A model generated the notes under the pieces. The model searched no databases, had not been told where the DNA came from, and saw nothing but the letters and a program-made list of their open reading frames with translations. Positions 5,499 through 13,933 of a stretch of 64,000 nucleotides of DNA are shown piece by piece (positions within the stretch are counted from its first letter, which is position 1; every line of letters starts with the position of its first letter). This DNA comes from Thermoflexibacter ruber (lineage in GTDB: Bacteria; Bacteroidota; Bacteroidia; Cytophagales; Thermoflexibacteraceae). Made by a program: the position numbers and the translations under genes. The stretch spans positions 1 through 64,000 of the forward strand of contig NZ_FONY01000029.1 of NCBI RefSeq assembly GCF_900113045.1, read 5' to 3'.

Positions 5499-8400
5499 CT
5501 ATCCCACCTTTTCCTCTTCCTTCGCCACCCCATTCTGCGTATGCCCTTCTATTTGTTGCGTGTTTTCACGCAACAAACCGTCATTAGCCCTCACATTCAC
5601 CCTTGGCGGTAGCAATTTATACAATACAGGCGTAACGATACGACTGAGCAACGTACTGCTTATCAAACCACCTATCAGCACCCAAGCAAGCGGAGAGTAG
5701 AGTGGCGCATCTTCCAATACGAGCGGAATAAAGCCGCCAATCGCCGTCATGGAAGTCAGCAAAATTGGGAGGAAGCGAGTTTCTGCCCCGTCACGAATCG
5801 CAGTTTCAAGGGATACTCCTTGTTCTCGCAGTTGGTTAGTATAGTCCACGAGCAAGATAGAGTTTTTGATTTCTATGCCCATCAAAGCGATAAACCCAAT
5901 TGTAGCCACAAAAGAAAGCGTATTTCCTGTAATCAGCAAGGTAACTAATCCCCCAATTACGCCCAAAGGCACGACGGAAAGCACAATCAGGGTACTTTTG
6001 AAAGTCCTAAATTCCAATACCAAAATCGCTAATAAACCAAAGACGGTCAGCACGATAACAGGACCCAAGCCTCCAAAGGAATTTTCGCTACTTTCTTTCT
6101 CCCCCGCTACTTGGAAATAATAGCCTTCGGGTAAGGGAATCTCGTCCAATTTTTTCTCCAATACTGCATTAATTTCAGAGGCATTGTAGCCAATTTTCGT
6201 AAAGGCATTGATAGCTACGAAGCGGTCTTTGTTGTAGTGCTGAATTGTAGGGGCAGAAGTTTGCAACTCTACTGTGGCTAAGTTACTTAGCGGAATCAAA
6301 GCTCCTGACAGCGAGGTTACGTATATCTTGCTAAATACTTCCAAAATTTGATTTTTATCTTTTTCTACACTCACATTAATTTTATACTCGTCCCCGTCGT
6401 CTGCCCTGAAATTCCCCACATTTAGCCCTGCGATGCCAAGTCGCACCGTTTTGGCTATCTCACTACTTGGTACGCCCAACATTCCTGCCTTATCTTTATT
6501 GATAACTACTTTTAAATCAGTTTTTTGTATCTGCAAAGGGTTCTTTACGTAAATCGTTCCTTCGGTTTTCTTAATCAAATCTTCTAACTTGAAAGCCAAA
6601 GCCCTGAGAGAGTCTAAGTTATCTCCAAAAATGCGGATAGAGATAGGCGCATCAACGGGAGGTCCTTGCTCAAACTGCTTTACCTCAATATTCGCTCCCG
6701 CATAGTCTTTGAATTTAGCACGCAAATCATCTACAATCTTTTCTATTTGTGTCATTTTCAGATGTTCTAACTGCACAAATAATTGAGCAAAATTACTTGA
6801 TTCATTTTGTGGGTTTACGTTGTAATAAATTCTTGGATTGCCTTTCCCCACATTGGTCGTTACGCTTTTTACCTCTTTAATTTTCATAATTTCTTGCTCA
6901 GCATACTTGGCAATTCTATTGGTTTCGTACAAATTCGTTCCGAGTGGGGCTTCTATATTTACCAAGAACATGGGTTTCTCTGACTTCGGAAAAACACTAA
7001 ATCCTATACTTGGAATTAAGAACAAGCTACCTACAAAAAGTCCAAGTGCTAATAGCAAAGTTAAGACAGGGTGGGCAAAGCCCCACTCCAAGATATAGCG
7101 ATATGGCTCGTTAATGTATTTTTTGAAAGCACGTAGAAACCAATTACCTTCTGCTTGTTCGTGGTCTTTCAAAATTTGGCTGGAAAGAAAGGGAATAATT
7201 GTCAAAGCTACAAACAAAGAAGCTAATACTGTCATACTCACCGCCATAGGCAAGCTTCTTATAAAATCTCCTGCACTTTCAGGTAGGAAAGATAAAGGCA
7301 AGAAAGCCAAGATTAAAACCGCAGTACAGCCCAAAATGGCTAATCCAATTTGTTTAGTTGCCTCTATTGCGGCTTGCTTGCGGTTGTAACCCATTCGTAA
7401 AAAGCGTTCTATGTTTTCCACCACCACAATAGAATCATCTACCAATAAGCCTAAGGCAATCACCATACCCACAATGCTTAACTGATTGATAGTATAGTCC
7501 AAAAAGTCTAACAATGCCAAGCCAATAGCCAAAGAAAGCGGAATAGAAATCATCACGACTACAGAAGCCCTCCAACCTAAAGGGACTAAGGTAATGAGAA
7601 CCAAGACAATAGCAATCATAAAATCTCTGCCCAAACCCGATAGGCGGCGAGAAACGCCTTCTGCTTGGTCAAAACTCTTTACAAATTTGAGGTGAGCAGG
7701 TACTTCTTTTTCAAACTTTGCTAATATAGGTTCTATTGCCTCTCGTGTTTGCAAGATATTTTTTCTATCTTTTAAACTTGCAGTGATAAAAACTGCCCTC
7801 TTTCCATTGAATCTACCTATATAGGTTTCATCTTCGTAACCCATCATTACCTCTGCTATATCTTTTAAATAGACAATTTTTCCTGCGGAGGAGTGAACAA
7901 CCACATTCTTGATTTCGTCTAATTTTGCAAAATCTTCCCCTGTTTTTACGTTATATTTTTTAGTAGCAATATCTACACTTCCACTTGGAATATTTATATT
8001 TTCAGCTTGGATAGCCCCCAACACCCTATTCAACCCCATTTTGTTCTGTGCCATTCTCTCCAAGTCAATAGAAATTTTTACCTCCTGCTTAGGAAAGGCA
8101 TGAATTTCCACATTTTTTAAAGTTTTTATCTTTTCTAAACGCTTCTTCAGCTCGTCTGCTTTTTTCTCCATTTCACTATACGGTGCCGTTTCTGAGATGA
8201 TTGCACATTGCAAAATATTGACATTAGAACTTTGGAATTGCCTAACTTCTAAGCTAAAAAGGTCAGCAGGGAGTTTGGTACTGCGAAGATTGGTAATCTC
8301 GCGCACTACTTCATTTTTCTTGTCATCTACATTGACTCCGTGGTTAAACTCCACAATAATTACCGCCAAACCATCAGAAATGGTAGTAATGATTTTCTTG

Positions 8401-8630
8401 ATGTCCTCTAACTCATACATTCTATCCTCAATAGGCTCTACTACCAGTTCTTCCATGTCGGTAGGGCTTGCCCCGGGATAAACGGCAATAATTGGGTAAC
8501 CCGTGCCGTTAAAGGGAGGGTCTTCACCACGAGGCATATTGAGTAGGGAACTGACCCCAAGCACCATCACCGCAATAAAAATGATGATAGTGAATTGGTA
8601 ATTTTTTACAGAAAATTCAGCGAGTTTCAT
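5499..8630 (-). CDS. RND family efflux transporter, inner-membrane pump subunit
   Basis: This 1043-residue protein has the AcrB/HAE1 architecture: one TM helix at 12-30, a periplasmic porter domain, TM2-6 around 335-490, a second periplasmic half and a final TM bundle (about 850-1005). The proton-relay pair in TM4 is present (GLLVDDSIVVVENIERF, D398 and D399). The N-terminal GEDPPF and YPGASPTDMEELVVEPIED are family hallmarks. It uses proton motive force to export substrates through a tripartite channel with the adaptor and TolC-like genes upstream on the same strand. I cannot tell the substrate (drugs, bile acids or metals). It is the last gene of the operon led by the TetR gene, separated by 165 bases of repeat-rich DNA from the gene before it. 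Confidence 0.93.
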   Translation of the reverse strand: MKLAEFSVKNYQFTIIIFIAVMVLGVSSLLNMPRGEDPPFNGTGYPIIAVYPGASPTDMEELVVEPIEDRMYELEDIKKIITTISDGLAVIIVEFNHGVNVDDKKNEVVREITNLRSTKLPADLFSLEVRQFQSSNVNILQCAIISETAPYSEMEKKADELKKRLEKIKTLKNVEIHAFPKQEVKISIDLERMAQNKMGLNRVLGAIQAENINIPSGSVDIATKKYNVKTGEDFAKLDEIKNVVVHSSAGKIVYLKDIAEVMMGYEDETYIGRFNGKRAVFITASLKDRKNILQTREAIEPILAKFEKEVPAHLKFVKSFDQAEGVSRRLSGLGRDFMIAIVLVLITLVPLGWRASVVVMISIPLSLAIGLALLDFLDYTINQLSIVGMVIALGLLVDDSIVVVENIERFLRMGYNRKQAAIEATKQIGLAILGCTAVLILAFLPLSFLPESAGDFIRSLPMAVSMTVLASLFVALTIIPFLSSQILKDHEQAEGNWFLRAFKKYINEPYRYILEWGFAHPVLTLLLALGLFVGSLFLIPSIGFSVFPKSEKPMFLVNIEAPLGTNLYETNRIAKYAEQEIMKIKEVKSVTTNVGKGNPRIYYNVNPQNESSNFAQLFVQLEHLKMTQIEKIVDDLRAKFKDYAGANIEVKQFEQGPPVDAPISIRIFGDNLDSLRALAFKLEDLIKKTEGTIYVKNPLQIQKTDLKVVINKDKAGMLGVPSSEIAKTVRLGIAGLNVGNFRADDGDEYKINVSVEKDKNQILEVFSKIYVTSLSGALIPLSNLATVELQTSAPTIQHYNKDRFVAINAFTKIGYNASEINAVLEKKLDEIPLPEGYYFQVAGEKESSENSFGGLGPVIVLTVFGLLAILVLEFRTFKSTLIVLSVVPLGVIGGLVTLLITGNTLSFVATIGFIALMGIEIKNSILLVDYTNQLREQGVSLETAIRDGAETRFLPILLTSMTAIGGFIPLVLEDAPLYSPLAWVLIGGLISSTLLSRIVTPVLYKLLPPRVNVRANDGLLRENTQQIEGHTQNGVAKEEEKVG

Positions 8631-8795: not shown

Positions 8796-9713
8796 TCATA
8801 ATTCCAAAGTTTTCCTCACCCCCTCTTGATACGGAGTAGGCTTAAAATCAAAGCGTTTTTCAAATTTTTCACTATTGAAAAAGTAATCTCTATCGTACTG
8901 ATAAAGCATTTCGTGCAATTCCTTCATAAAAGGAACAAACCAACCAATAACAGCAACCAACCAAGCAGGAAGAACCGAAATCTTGGGTGCGACATTCATC
9001 TCTTTGGCGAAAAGCTCTATCCACTGCTTGCCCGTCAATTTCTGGCTGTCAGTAGGCAAATGCCAAACTTGATTATAGGCATCTGGCGTATTTCCCAAAA
9101 TAGCGGTTGCTTTTGCGGCATCAGGCGTATAGGTAAAGGAGTGAATTTTGTCCAAACGCACAAACCAATTCGCCGCCTTGCCTTTTTTGAAGTTTTTAGG
9201 TACCACCTCCATTAGAAAACTTTTTTCGTTTTTGGGACCGTAGAAGTCTGCTGCCCTCGCAATCAATGCTTCTAACTTTCCTGCTTTTACTGCGTCCATG
9301 ATGAGTCTGACCACTTCTGCTCTCACCTCTCCCTTTTTGCTTGTAGGGCGAATCGGAGTCTCCTCCGTCATATTCCCCAAAAAATCGCGGTCATACATAT
9401 AGACATTATCAAAAAATACCAATTTTGCTTTGTTTGCTCGGCAAGCCTCTATAACCGTTTTCATCAATTTTACCCATTCTCTGCGCCATACTTTAATGTT
9501 GTACTCAAAACCTACAACTACATACACAATTTCAGAACCTGCGATTGCTTTTTTAACTTGTTCTGAATCAGTCAAGTTCGCAGGAAAAAGTTGGTCGGTT
9601 TCATTCACCTTTTTTGGATTACGACTTACCAAGCGAATGTCCGAAGTATATTTTTTAAGTTCTTTGGCAAGTTCGCTACCTATCGTACCCCCTGCCCCTA
9701 AGATTGTTTGCAT
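8796..9713 (-). CDS. NAD(P)-dependent epimerase/dehydratase family protein (atypical short-chain reductase)
   Basis: This 305-residue protein starts with the Rossmann motif MQTILGAGGTIGSELAKEL (GxGGxxG type) and continues with VYVVVGF at the end of beta-4. VFFDNVYMYDRD stands where SDR enzymes keep the catalytic region. A canonical YxxxK is not obvious, so this is an atypical SDR or NAD(P)-binding protein. The C-terminal third (WHLPTDSQKLTGKQWIELFA) resembles the substrate half of NmrA/epimerase-like proteins. It lies inside the efflux operon between the adaptor and pump genes, an unusual position. The substrate is unknown. Confidence 0.75.
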   Translation of the reverse strand: MQTILGAGGTIGSELAKELKKYTSDIRLVSRNPKKVNETDQLFPANLTDSEQVKKAIAGSEIVYVVVGFEYNIKVWRREWVKLMKTVIEACRANKAKLVFFDNVYMYDRDFLGNMTEETPIRPTSKKGEVRAEVVRLIMDAVKAGKLEALIARAADFYGPKNEKSFLMEVVPKNFKKGKAANWFVRLDKIHSFTYTPDAAKATAILGNTPDAYNQVWHLPTDSQKLTGKQWIELFAKEMNVAPKISVLPAWLVAVIGWFVPFMKELHEMLYQYDRDYFFNSEKFEKRFDFKPTPYQEGVRKTLEL

Positions 9714-9898: not shown

Positions 9899-10951
9899 TT
9901 ATTTAATTACCACCTTCTTGCCTTCCACTAAATACGGAGAGCCAGCAGTAACTACCTGATTTACATTTTCTAAGCCAGAAGTTACAACGACTTTTCCCTC
10001 TATCAATCTTGCAATGGTAATATTGACTTTCTTAGCAATTTTCTTATCATCTATAGTATAAACAATTCCTTCTTTGCCGTTGCTTTCCACCAAAGCCTCT
10101 ATGGGAATAATGGTTTTCGTCTGTACATTAGACGGGGTAATTTCCACCGAAGCCATCAATCCAGAAGCAAAACGAGCATTCTTGGGATTGACTGAAATTT
10201 CTACTTGGAAAGTGCCACTCATGGGGTCGGCAGCTTGGGCAAGTTGGCTTACTGTCCCTTCAAAAACCTCGTCAGGATAAGCGTCAAAGTGTACTTTTGC
10301 CTTGTCGCCAATATTAATTTTTGCCCAATCTCTGTCAGCCAAACCTACTTTAATTACCCAGTCTTGGGAAGTAGTGCCGTTCATCAAAAATACAGGCGCA
10401 CCTGCTTGTGCCAACTCGCCCACATTCATCAATTTTTTTAGAATTTTTCCGTTGGCAACAGCACGAATTTCTGTATAGTTTTGGTTAAACTTGGCAATAT
10501 CAACATTCTGTTTAGCAACAGTATAGGCAGTATTTACATTTTGAAACTGCTCCAAAGTAGCTACACTGTCTTTGTACAAATTCGTGATGCGTTGCAAATC
10601 TCTTTCTGCTTTGTTCAGTCCTTCTGCCGCTTGGGTAACTTGGGCGTTGATTTCAGTTTGATTCAAGACTGCCAAAAGTTGCCCTTGTGTAACTGCCTGA
10701 CCTTCTTTTACATAGATTTTATCAATAATGCCACCTATCTTGAAAGAAAGGCGAGCCTCTGTACTTGAAGAAAGCAAGCCAGAAGTAAGCACTTTTTCAG
10801 TAATAGTTTCTTGGGTTACTTTGGTAACTTGCACAGGAACAGTGTCTTCACTAACCTCAGCTTCTTTAGCTTTGTTATCGGCACAGGCAACAGCAAAAAA
10901 TACAACTGCCACCATACCAATGATTTGAATAAAAAGTTTTTTAGTAAGCAT
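9899..10951 (-). CDS. RND efflux periplasmic adaptor (membrane fusion protein), lipoprotein
   Basis: This 350-residue protein has an N-terminal lipoprotein signal (KKLFIQIIGMVAVVFFAVAC, likely lipidated at the Cys). Next come the barrel-sandwich half (GGIIDKIYVKEGQAVTQGQLLAVL), a helical hairpin of about 100-150 (AEGLNKAERDLQRITNLYK), the returning lipoyl half (IRAVANGKILKKLMNVGELAQAGAPVF) and the beta-barrel (KAKVHFDAYPDEVFEGTVSQLA). This is the HlyD/AcrA family layout. It bridges the inner-membrane pump and the TolC-like channel encoded in the same operon. A gap of 166 bases with repeats separates it from the small gene upstream. Confidence 0.9.
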   Translation of the reverse strand: MLTKKLFIQIIGMVAVVFFAVACADNKAKEAEVSEDTVPVQVTKVTQETITEKVLTSGLLSSSTEARLSFKIGGIIDKIYVKEGQAVTQGQLLAVLNQTEINAQVTQAAEGLNKAERDLQRITNLYKDSVATLEQFQNVNTAYTVAKQNVDIAKFNQNYTEIRAVANGKILKKLMNVGELAQAGAPVFLMNGTTSQDWVIKVGLADRDWAKINIGDKAKVHFDAYPDEVFEGTVSQLAQAADPMSGTFQVEISVNPKNARFASGLMASVEITPSNVQTKTIIPIEALVESNGKEGIVYTIDDKKIAKKVNITIARLIEGKVVVTSGLENVNQVVTAGSPYLVEGKKVVIK

Positions 10952-11528: not shown

Positions 11529-13004
11529 CTATTCAACAAGCACATACCCTGCCTTTACCCTTTCCACCTCTGCCAGTTTTATCCAAACATTGTAAAGTGC
11601 GATAGACTGTTGGAGTTGGGCAGAAGTTAGGTTGTTTCTTGCATCAAGGTACTCTATCTGAGAGGCTTGCCCTTGTTTGTAGCGTTTGAAAGTATCGTTA
11701 AAATATTTTTGTGCAGACTCTACTTGAAACTGTGTACTTTGGTAAATTTCTAAGGCAGAACGATAGTTGTTTACCGTAGTTTTTACTTGTAGGTGCAACT
11801 GATTATCTACCTGTTCGTATTGAGCGTTGAGGGCATTCAAGTCCATTTCTGCTTGCTTGATTTTCAATTTGTTGCGACCGCTTGCAAACAAGTTCCAATC
11901 CAAAGAAATCCCTAAAAGTGCGTAGCGAGTTTGGTCGTTGAACTGCCAATGAAAACCTTGAGAACCCAAATCCACAGCAGTCCCTAATTTTGGTATCCAA
12001 AAGGTCTTATTTAAGTTCAAAACTTGCTGGTTGGCATTGATTCCTGCCTTGATTTTCTGCAACTCCTCACGATTTCCCATTTCCGCATTGATATTCTCAG
12101 GAATTTGAGTTTTAATCGTATTAAAAGTCGTATCTATTTGAATTTGGCTTTCTAAAGGCTTGTTTAAGAGAAAATTAAGGTAAGCTACTGCGTTTTGCTG
12201 ATTGTTTTGTGCTTCCATGATTTGTGCCTCTATCTTGCTGATTTCACTTTGAGAACGGGCAAGCACCGTACTTGTCGCCATGCCATTTTTTACTAAAGAC
12301 TCATTGATTCTTTGGCTCTCTTTCAACAGATTAAGCGCATTTTGGTAAATTTTTACTGCCTCGCTTGCCTGCAAAAATTTGAAATAAGCCGTTTTGATGT
12401 CTTTGACCAACTCACGCTTATATACATTGATTTCTGCTTGCTGCATAGTGAGTTGCTCTTGCTTTATCTTTTTGTTGTAATAAATTTCTGCATTGACCAA
12501 AGGCACAGCAAACCTAAACCTTGCATCGTAAAAGTCATGAGGCATCAACTGCTCGTTTACATTGGAAATCTGTGGAAAGCGGTCAGATTGAGTAAGTTGG
12601 TTCAAAGTCTGATACACTGGGTTTACCAAATCCCCCACAGGCAGATTGATGCGACGACCTCCCGTAGCTGAGGTATAGGTGGTATTGAAATTGACCGTAG
12701 GCATGAAAAGCGTATTTGCTTCTCGCAGTGCATAGAGATTTTTCTCCAATAAGAATCGCTGTTGCTTCAACGCCTGATTGTTTTGCAAGCCTTCTTTGAT
12801 ATAAGCCTCGAGAATAGGAGTTTGCGCAAGTAGCTGAAACGGTTTTGTAAGTAATAACACTTGCAAAATTGTAATGTAAAGAATCAAACTTTTGAATGAT
12901 GGTTTGATTTTTTCTGATAAAAACCCTCTCCTTTGTGCGGTGCGGCGTTCCGCAGGGTTTGGGTAGGGCATACTAACTTGACGATGAATAAATTGTGTTC
13001 TCAT
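11529..13004 (-). CDS. TolC family outer membrane efflux protein
   Basis: This is a 491-residue protein of the outer-membrane factor family with the two-fold helical repeat (YFKFLQASEAVKIYQNALNLLKES...; YLDARNNLTSAQLQQSIALYNVWIKLAEVERVKAG). Signal peptide hydrophobic residues lie at about 38-60 (LILYITILQVLLLTK...LLAQ), unusually far from Met1. Residues 13-30 (PYPNPAERRTAQRRGF) are encoded by a GC-richer block at about 12922-12970 that looks like an inserted repeat. M12 (start 12971) is another possible start, but no Met lies nearer the signal sequence. The protein forms the exit duct of the pump encoded in this operon. It starts 59 bases after the tetR gene. Confidence 0.9.
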   Translation of the reverse strand: MRTQFIHRQVSMPYPNPAERRTAQRRGFLSEKIKPSFKSLILYITILQVLLLTKPFQLLAQTPILEAYIKEGLQNNQALKQQRFLLEKNLYALREANTLFMPTVNFNTTYTSATGGRRINLPVGDLVNPVYQTLNQLTQSDRFPQISNVNEQLMPHDFYDARFRFAVPLVNAEIYYNKKIKQEQLTMQQAEINVYKRELVKDIKTAYFKFLQASEAVKIYQNALNLLKESQRINESLVKNGMATSTVLARSQSEISKIEAQIMEAQNNQQNAVAYLNFLLNKPLESQIQIDTTFNTIKTQIPENINAEMGNREELQKIKAGINANQQVLNLNKTFWIPKLGTAVDLGSQGFHWQFNDQTRYALLGISLDWNLFASGRNKLKIKQAEMDLNALNAQYEQVDNQLHLQVKTTVNNYRSALEIYQSTQFQVESAQKYFNDTFKRYKQGQASQIEYLDARNNLTSAQLQQSIALYNVWIKLAEVERVKAGYVLVE

Positions 13005-13025
13005 TTAATTATTGATGTTTAAATA

Positions 13026-13041
13026 ATAAACAGTGTTCAGT
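13026..13041. promoter_or_regulatory. Operator-like site 2, between tetR and tolC
   Basis: Reads ATAAACAGTGTTCAGT on the plus strand. Its reverse complement differs by one base from ACTGAACAGTGTTTAT at 13850-13865. The core AACAsTGTT is palindromic, as expected for a TetR dimer. It lies 22 bases before the tolC-like start codon. Confidence 0.6.
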
Positions 13042-13063
13042 TTAAATATAAATTTTTTTGCTT

Positions 13064-13708
13064 TTAGTTTTCTGTAAAAGAACTTGTCATAGGATTTGCC
13101 TTGAAAACCTGCATCAAATTGTCCATAGCATCTCTGAACAAATAGGGCAGTATATTTTGGTCATACATTACCAGTCTTTCTCTGATATAGAGCGAAGCCA
13201 TGCCGTGCATAAGCGAACTAATAGTAACAGCGGCTACATCTAAATCCATTTTTCTCATATATCCTTTCTCCATGCACTCTACAATAGTGTCTTGTAATAG
13301 TTTGAAAGAACGCATACCACAAACCCAATCTATATTTCCATTCTCATTCCGAGCTTCAATAGGTGCGCGCATAACAAACATCAAATCGTAAAATTCTCTA
13401 TGCTCAAAAGCAAACTCTAAGTACAAATCTCCCATGCGTCTAAGCCTCATGTAAGGATTTTCTATTTTTTGGGATTCGCTTAGTTTAGCAAAAAACATAT
13501 CAAAGCCTTTGTCGTGAATAGCTCTAAAAATTTCGTTTTTATCCTTGAAATACAGATAGATGGTTGCTGGGCTGTACTCTATTTTTTCTGCGATACTTCT
13601 TATAGATGTTTTATCAAAGCCTTCTTTTAAAAAAAGTTCAGTAGCCGCTTCAAGAATCTGGTTGCGTAGTTCTAATTTTTCTCTTTCTTTTCTTGCTAAT
13701 ACTCCCAT
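13064..13708 (-). CDS. TetR/AcrR family transcriptional regulator
   Basis: This 214-residue protein has an N-terminal TetR helix-turn-helix of about residues 10-60: ELRNQILEAATELFLKEGFDKTSIRSIAEKIEYSPATIYLYFKDKNEIF, the standard signature. The C-terminal ligand domain has a TetR_C-like region (FEHREFYDLMFVM). It is the first gene of the efflux operon and most likely represses it, with a ligand relieving repression. Two nearly identical operator-like sites flank the gene: one lies inside its own promoter, the other in front of the tolC-like gene. The second site would allow extra control of the downstream genes. Confidence 0.92.
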   Translation of the reverse strand: MGVLARKEREKLELRNQILEAATELFLKEGFDKTSIRSIAEKIEYSPATIYLYFKDKNEIFRAIHDKGFDMFFAKLSESQKIENPYMRLRRMGDLYLEFAFEHREFYDLMFVMRAPIEARNENGNIDWVCGMRSFKLLQDTIVECMEKGYMRKMDLDVAAVTISSLMHGMASLYIRERLVMYDQNILPYLFRDAMDNLMQVFKANPMTSSFTEN

Positions 13709-13842
13709 GTGTTACGGTGGATATGGTTAAAGTAAAGTTAATTTGGGTTTGATAATAAGTTATTTTCAGTAATTTCAAACAAACTAAAACTATTTTCAAA
13801 CCCCTTTTTAATCATTTAACGGAAATGATTTTATAAACGTTG

Positions 13843-13874
13843 CAAATTTACTGAACAGTGTTTATAAAAACAAA
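13843..13874 (-). promoter_or_regulatory. Promoter of tetR and the efflux operon
   Basis: On the minus strand this reads TTTG (13874-13871), a 20-base spacer and TAAATTTG (13850-13843), a full match to the Bacteroidota -33/-7 consensus. Transcription would start near 13837, about 130 bases before the tetR ATG. The operator-like site 13850-13865 fills most of the spacer. Confidence 0.7.
13850..13865. promoter_or_regulatory. Operator-like site 1, inside the tetR promoter
   Basis: ACTGAACAGTGTTTAT. It matches site 2 (13026-13041, reverse complement) at 15 of 16 positions and sits between the -33 and -7 boxes, where a bound dimer would block RNA polymerase. Confidence 0.6.
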
Positions 13875-13925: not shown

Positions 13926-13933
13926 TATTTTTG
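13926..13933 (+). promoter_or_regulatory. Possible -7 box for the exonuclease gene
   Basis: TATTTTTG fits TAnnTTTG, 46 bases before the ATG at 13980. The upstream box (TTTA, 13899-13902) is weak. Confidence 0.35.

Follow-up and report, generated by a model that had tools for sequence, protein, structure and literature searches.

Two copies of a 13-bp palindrome flank the tetR gene at the head of an efflux pump operon in Thermoflexibacter ruber, and we regard it as highly likely, judging from the DNA and its relatives, that the encoded protein is an autoregulating TetR repressor of this tetR-tolC-mfp-RND operon, acting at both operators. Because almost every relative examined also has the palindrome ahead of its corresponding gene, it is very probably the place where the TetR protein binds and represses both itself and the pump.

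In the window (the whole stretch of 64,000 nucleotides that was analysed), tetR (ORF at 13064..13708, minus strand) encodes a TetR-family repressor of 214 amino acids, whose DNA-binding head, as assigned with Pfam and the structural model, carries R37, P47, A48, and Y51. The gene heads a series of ORFs on the same strand, encoding a TolC-type outer-membrane efflux protein (OEP; 11529..13004; Pfam), an RND periplasmic adaptor (MFP; 9899..10951; Pfam and NCBIfam), an NAD-dependent epimerase-like protein within the operon (8796..9713; Pfam and comparison of relatives), and an RND pump of the AcrB/ACR_tran family (5499..8630; Pfam and NCBIfam). The tetR, tolC, mfp, and RND genes run in one direction, as in an operon of the BmeR5-BmeCAB5 type. 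This order was found in 66 of 80 loci (2 of them with the epimerase inserted), while the others showed tetR-tolC-mfp (3), tetR-tolC (7), or tetR alone (4), several of the contigs being short; a tolC relative was present in 76 of the 80 fetched loci. Among the 80 relatives, an epimerase gene occupies the same place between the adaptor and RND genes only in L009, and in L062 it is placed before tolC. We also observed a GC-rich stretch (12905-12975; TGCGGCGTTCCGCAGGGTTTGGG plus flanks) inside the start of tolC, where it encodes an odd N-terminal stretch. It may be a small inserted repeat; a single further, weak copy lies at G000:C70:774-823 (78% over 50 nt). On the other side of tetR, a divergent gene for a ligase-associated exonuclease (TIGR04122; 13980..15014, plus strand; direct reading and NCBIfam) has its own TAnnTTTG at 13926-13933 and probably lies outside the control of operator 1.

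The tetR product belongs to the TetR family by its match to TetR_N (PF00440, 57.3 bits; cut-off 24) and also matches the TetR_C_33 ligand domain (PF13305, 38.5 bits). Its AlphaFold model (pLDDT 90.2) has the all-helical TetR fold, with 6c31_A as the best structural match (Z 18.9, 190 residues, rmsd 2.9), and the predicted recognition helix comprises residues 47-51, with residue 48 at its start (pLDDT 90). Nearly all structural matches listed (Foldseek/VIA) are other TetR-family regulators, with no tetO complex among them, and the mapping onto TetR used below therefore rests on sequence.

An earlier note on this DNA had described a matched pair of operator-like 16-mers with a single central difference. 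Both are found where it placed them, ACTGAACAGTGTTTAT at 13850-13865 on the plus strand and ACTGAACACTGTTTAT at 13041-13026 on the minus strand, and they match as described; the central difference is real and represents the dyad center of a palindrome, with C on the coding strand at both sites. What had to be revised is the unit itself. The outermost A of the 16-mer (13850) is already part of the -7 box, and what is conserved is the 13-bp palindrome within it, TNAACASTGTTNA. Operator 1 (TAAACACTGTTCA on the minus, i.e., coding, strand) lies at 13852..13864, as supported by direct reading, pattern scan, and conservation, and operator 2 (TGAACACTGTTTA on the minus strand; direct reading and pattern scan) lies at 13027..13039, 22 nt before the tolC start, at a distance of 825 bp from operator 1. 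The two 16-mers are the sole matches in the window at up to three mismatches, and both have none; the loose pattern alone is not rare, since shuffled versions of the window yield a mean of 1.49 matches at this threshold.

Conservation upstream of tetR genes

The search for the core covered 200 nt upstream of each tetR gene, with 20 first-order Markov sequences per locus as controls. A scan of species genomes provided the first set, consisting of the window and the best 80 of 146 TetR relatives (40-87% identity, many of them closely related). Here, TNAACASTGTTNA was found with 0, 1, 2, and 4 mismatches in 51, 25, 4, and 1 loci, respectively, corresponding to 76/81 loci at up to one mismatch (controls 14/1620) and 80/81 at up to two (controls 170/1620). 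The core pattern had been shaped on these loci, and two later sets were therefore used as held-out tests. The second set derives from a phylum sample of 296 genomes, 34 of which had an ortholog at E<=1e-40; it comprised 29 loci besides the window, reduced to 28 when L114, located at a contig edge, was left out. The core was detected with 0, 1, 2, 3, and 4 mismatches in 11, 9, 6, 1, and 1 of these (up to one mismatch 20/28, controls 10/1400; up to two 26/28, controls 140/1400). Two of the 28, L101 and L102, repeat first-set genes, and both are exact. For the third set, a class sample of 395 genomes and five orthologs left over from the phylum sample yielded 26 new loci, distributed 13, 8, 3, 1, and 1 by rising mismatch count (up to one mismatch 21/26, controls 5/1300; up to two 24/26, controls 123/1300). 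The median best identity of the 54 held-out proteins to a first-set protein is 48%, and only L101 and L102 reach 80% or more (both 100%).

Scanning other genomes for the site had been suggested in the earlier note, which held that a lack of conservation upstream of orthologous tetR genes would speak against its operators. Since the motif is kept in all three locus sets, this objection falls away. No site 1 within two mismatches was detected in the 200 nt upstream of the orthologs L017, L105, L124, L145, and L168. The value of the palindrome lies in providing a defined, widely conserved, and testable candidate operator for many uncharacterized repressors across the phylum sample. Two orthologs, L011 and L015, are located on contigs titled Nitrospirae and Calditrichia, respectively, with the core upstream of tetR carrying two mismatches in L011 and being exact in L015; their position outside Bacteroidota would reflect transfer or misbinning.

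Paralogous regulators were intended as a negative control, for which 24 were taken from the 32 next-best, more distant TetR matches of the class sample (about 93-130 bits). The expectation that they would be free of the motif was not borne out, as the core was present with up to two mismatches in 21/24 (Markov controls 147/1200) and with up to one in 12/24 (13/1200); therefore, the finding extends beyond the orthologs. The core was absent from the paralogs L157, L164, and L165. The form found at paralogs is mostly (C/T)TAACASTGTTA(A/G), at -21 to -42, and several of them have a second site after tetR too. Among the six paralogs fetched with flanks, L176 and L177 adjoin RND pump genes, and the sizes of the neighboring ORFs suggest pump genes at L180. 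Other neighbors of paralogs with a like operator encode DsbA (L178), YceI (L179), and an NmrA-like protein (L181).

Within its own genome (5.5 Mb), TNAACASTGTTNA occurs at seven places, and its A/G type, TRAACASTGTTYA, only at the two window sites. Three of the five further places lie inside ORFs, one between ORFs, and one 5' of an ORF with an htpG-like start; among the neighboring ORFs listed, inspection by eye revealed none whose start resembled tetR or a pump gene. Across 19 genomes (its own and 18 relatives), TRAACASTGTTYA was found at 17 places, of which 10 are beside this tetR/tolC (including the two of the window) and 7 are away from the operon, while a reversed-pattern control yielded 11 places in the same genomes. 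These counts are most simply explained by a small local regulon, and we claim no larger one.

Promoter elements at the two sites

Promoters of the Bacteroidota sigma factor sigma-ABfr have the consensus TTTG near -33 and TAnnTTTG near -7, as given in PMC7366714. Site 1 had been proposed to lie between TTTG and TAAATTTG of the tetR promoter, and this could be read directly on the minus strand, with an exact match to the consensus: the -33 element TTTG is located at 13871..13874, the -7 element TAAATTTG at 13843..13850, and the spacer of 20 nt (13870-13851) encloses the whole palindrome, so that the coding strand reads TTTG-TTTTTATAAACACTGTTCAG-TAAATTTG. Transcription of tetR would start near 13837. 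The filling of the promoter spacer by the operator is a conserved arrangement. In the operator-aligned flanks of 80 loci, an exact TAnnTTTG follows the operator after 1 nt in 41 and after 2 nt in 12, giving 53/80 in total, and TTG is found within 26 nt 5' of the operator in 61/80; both boxes, by the rule used, were detected in only 42/80 site-1 promoters. The operator starts 33-59 nt before the tetR ATG in 71/80 loci, and the 156 nt of the window are unusual. Scans for sigma-70 promoters and terminators yielded nothing above shuffles, and folding of the tetR 5' leader surpassed that of shuffled sequences by a small margin only (z -1.69). Hairpin and attenuator explanations were dropped.

A core was also detected between tetR and the next ORF, with 0, 1, and 2 mismatches in 38, 12, and 3 of 80 loci, a count that includes the window and leaves out L050, which has no next ORF. 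This second site was present in 42/47 loci with a gap of 40-160 nt between tetR and the next gene and in 8/10 with a gap above 160 nt; at gaps below 40 nt it was found in 3/23, being mostly absent where tetR and tolC abut (40-160 nt vs. below 40 nt, Fisher 4e-10, relatedness of loci ignored). The flanks of the 53 second sites are largely fixed: every site has A or T throughout -18 to -14, almost every one has TTT at -13 to -11, and position -10 is mostly G (28 sites) or A (19). Downstream, +18 is T in 44 sites, +21 is A in 45, and +22 is C in 44. We interpret these flanks as a second promoter under repression, whose spacer is longer. At site 2 of the window, the boxes agree with the sigma-ABfr consensus in degenerate form only. 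The place of the conserved TTTG/TTTA is taken by TTTA (-33-like; 13049..13052, minus strand), and TTATTTAAAC, immediately past the operator (13017..13026, minus strand), is a weak -7-like element and not TAnnTTTG (both from direct reading and the alignment of second sites). Like site 1, site 2 probably sits in the spacer of a promoter, here for tolC, whose boxes are weaker in the window; in view of these two boxes, we infer the second-promoter step of the model outlined below. In several relatives, the second operator is just 11 nt from the start codon, and a promoter there would therefore yield a nearly leaderless mRNA.

We propose that a TetR dimer on TNAACASTGTTNA, within the spacer between TTTG and TAnnTTTG, would shut out RNA polymerase and so repress its own gene, while TetR on the copy before tolC would repress a second promoter serving the tolC-mfp-(epimerase)-RND genes. 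A pump substrate may act as the inducer that releases TetR. It is also conceivable, but rather unlikely, that the operators are real and site 2 lacks a separate promoter, in which case bound TetR would either block elongation from the tetR promoter as a roadblock or loop to site 1. The weak boxes at site 2 of the window would fit such a role, and the distance between the operators is compatible with looping. However, the A/T tract, TTTG/TTTA, and the downstream box keep fixed, promoter-like places across the 53 second sites, and 20 of the 23 loci with a gap below 40 nt have no second site, although a roadblock would be equally useful there.

Residue 48 and the outer operator base

Operator position +/-5 was left unscored in the search, and residue 48 (window numbering) was the best single predictor of this outer base among all columns, in a comparison of 148 regulators. 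Regulators with Ala, Gly, or Ser at residue 48 have A or G, and those with Thr or Pro have T, in 146/148 cases; the two exceptions, L103 and L166, are weak two-mismatch sites. The comparison started from 156 genes, after L101 and L102 (repeats), L114 (contig edge), and L164 (a paralog without Arg37) had been left out, and the step to 148 removed L017, L105, L124, L145, L157, L165, and L168 (no site within two mismatches) as well as L121 (outer base C). The latter encodes a His46-Pro47-Ser48 regulator with TCAACAGTGTTGA upstream of tetR, the only C-type outer base among 149 sites. R37 and Y51 are present in 149/149 regulators, operator position +2 is G in 149/149 with the partner -2 being C in 146, and +3 is T in 149/149, while the Gln38 equivalent, residue 47, is P, A, V, I, or L. 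The constancy of the core is partly selected, because core positions were scored in the search.

The switch to Thr48 and thymine happened just once among the first 81 genes, and the perfect segregation there therefore proves little. On a tree of the 156 genes, built without columns 45-50, 7-8 changes are required, but the branches with good support provide only four independent pairs. Of these, an average of 2.8 changed in the same direction, 1.2 showed no difference, and 0 changed in the opposite direction, which is below significance. We conclude that residue 48 is probably a one-residue specificity switch for the outer base, which we treat as a strong lead and not as a proven code. If the code is true, an A48T or A48P exchange should shift the preference of the protein from TRAACASTGTTYA to TTAACASTGTTAA. 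The operator, which is set in a promoter of the unusual TTTG/TAnnTTTG kind and may be predictable from a single residue, would offer a simple natural case of a change in protein-DNA specificity.

We further lean towards a broader reading, in which a Bacteroidota-wide TetR group, with at least two paralogous families that have members beside RND pumps, has kept one fixed operator core, AACASTGTT, and reads it with a head in which Arg37 and Tyr51 are invariant. Residue 48 would set the outer base (purine for Ala/Gly/Ser, thymine for Thr/Pro) and thereby keep paralogous repressors apart. If true, sequence alone would suffice to predict the operators and regulons of these uncharacterized efflux repressors throughout the phylum.

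Other regulators and known repressors

Four TetR_N proteins are encoded in the genome, and it is very improbable that one of the remaining three, or another regulator altogether, occupies the sites instead. Cross-recognition is conceivable given that TetR paralogs elsewhere have closely related operators, but the motif travels with this tetR in three locus sets, and the outer base follows the recognition-helix residue of the adjacent gene's own product in nearly all regulators compared, as described above. Moreover, the three other proteins have D, D, and Q at position 37 in place of Arg37, and no core within one mismatch was found in the 3.2-3.5 kb surrounding their genes. A chance or low-complexity likeness in A/T-rich intergenic DNA, for which about 1.5 matches per window are expected at three mismatches, has a negligible probability, as both matches are mismatch-free and the held-out genomes have kept the motif.

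Intrinsic drug resistance depends in part on local TetR repressors of RND pumps, and Tn10-type TetR combines autoregulation with the control of an efflux gene. An autoregulating TetR at both operators is a mechanistically ordinary arrangement that would work like known autoregulated TetR repressors of RND pumps. Among the matches listed from open-licence papers, we found no Bacteroidota TetR operator with this core and no operator sequence for a local TetR repressor of an RND pump in this phylum. The closest case described in the phylum, within the literature found, is BmeR5 of Bacteroides fragilis. We take bmeC5 to encode the outer-membrane factor. In the review section concerned, BmeR5 is described as binding the bmeR5-bmeC5 intergenic region and repressing bmeABC5 (PMC4790292). 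Compared by description, both systems have a TetR gene adjoining a pump gene of an RND system, and the region bound by BmeR5 would correspond to operator 2 if bmeC5 has the assumed function; unlike at site 1 here, that section describes no autoregulatory operator for BmeR5 (PMC4790292).

MtrR of Neisseria gonorrhoeae and AcrR of Escherichia coli are, like the protein proposed here, TetR-family local repressors of an RND pump. The tetR product is equivalent to neither by its NCBIfam scores (52 against a cut-off of 280 for MtrR, 40 against 271 for AcrR). Residue 48 presumably corresponds to MtrR Gly45, with an offset of 3, as judged from the NCBIfam match. The base next to Gly45 is invariably a purine, and a change to thymine would clash with this residue (PMC8053128, section 16). 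The MtrR consensus in that source, MCRTRCRN4YGYAYGK, is longer and its half-sites are spaced wider than here, and base positions therefore do not correspond one to one (PMC8053128).

Residues 15-65 match positions 4-54 of the Tn10 TetR model at equal length (22 bits; cut-off 265). On this match, we assume that R37 corresponds to Arg28, P47 to Gln38, and A48 to Pro39 of TetR. Arg37 would then read the G:C pair at +/-2, which hardly varies, and residue 48, as the counterpart of TetR Pro39 and MtrR Gly45, may read the outer base at +/-5. In the structural descriptions consulted, G+2 is bonded by TetR Arg28 and A+3 by Gln38, with Pro39 also touching bases (PMC7102968) and contacting two thymines (PMC2723105). 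Both systems have a short odd palindrome with G at +2, read by Arg28 in Tn10 TetR and presumably by Arg37 here. Unlike in Tn10 TetR, where Arg28 and Gln38 read G+2 and A+3, only the Arg28 equivalent is retained here (149/149); Gln38 is replaced and its contact is missing, and +3 is T and not A. The TetR_C_33 ligand domain and the proposed control of an RND pump rather than TetA are further differences. The paralog operator CTAACACTGTTAG is close to tetO, differing at the center and at +/-3.
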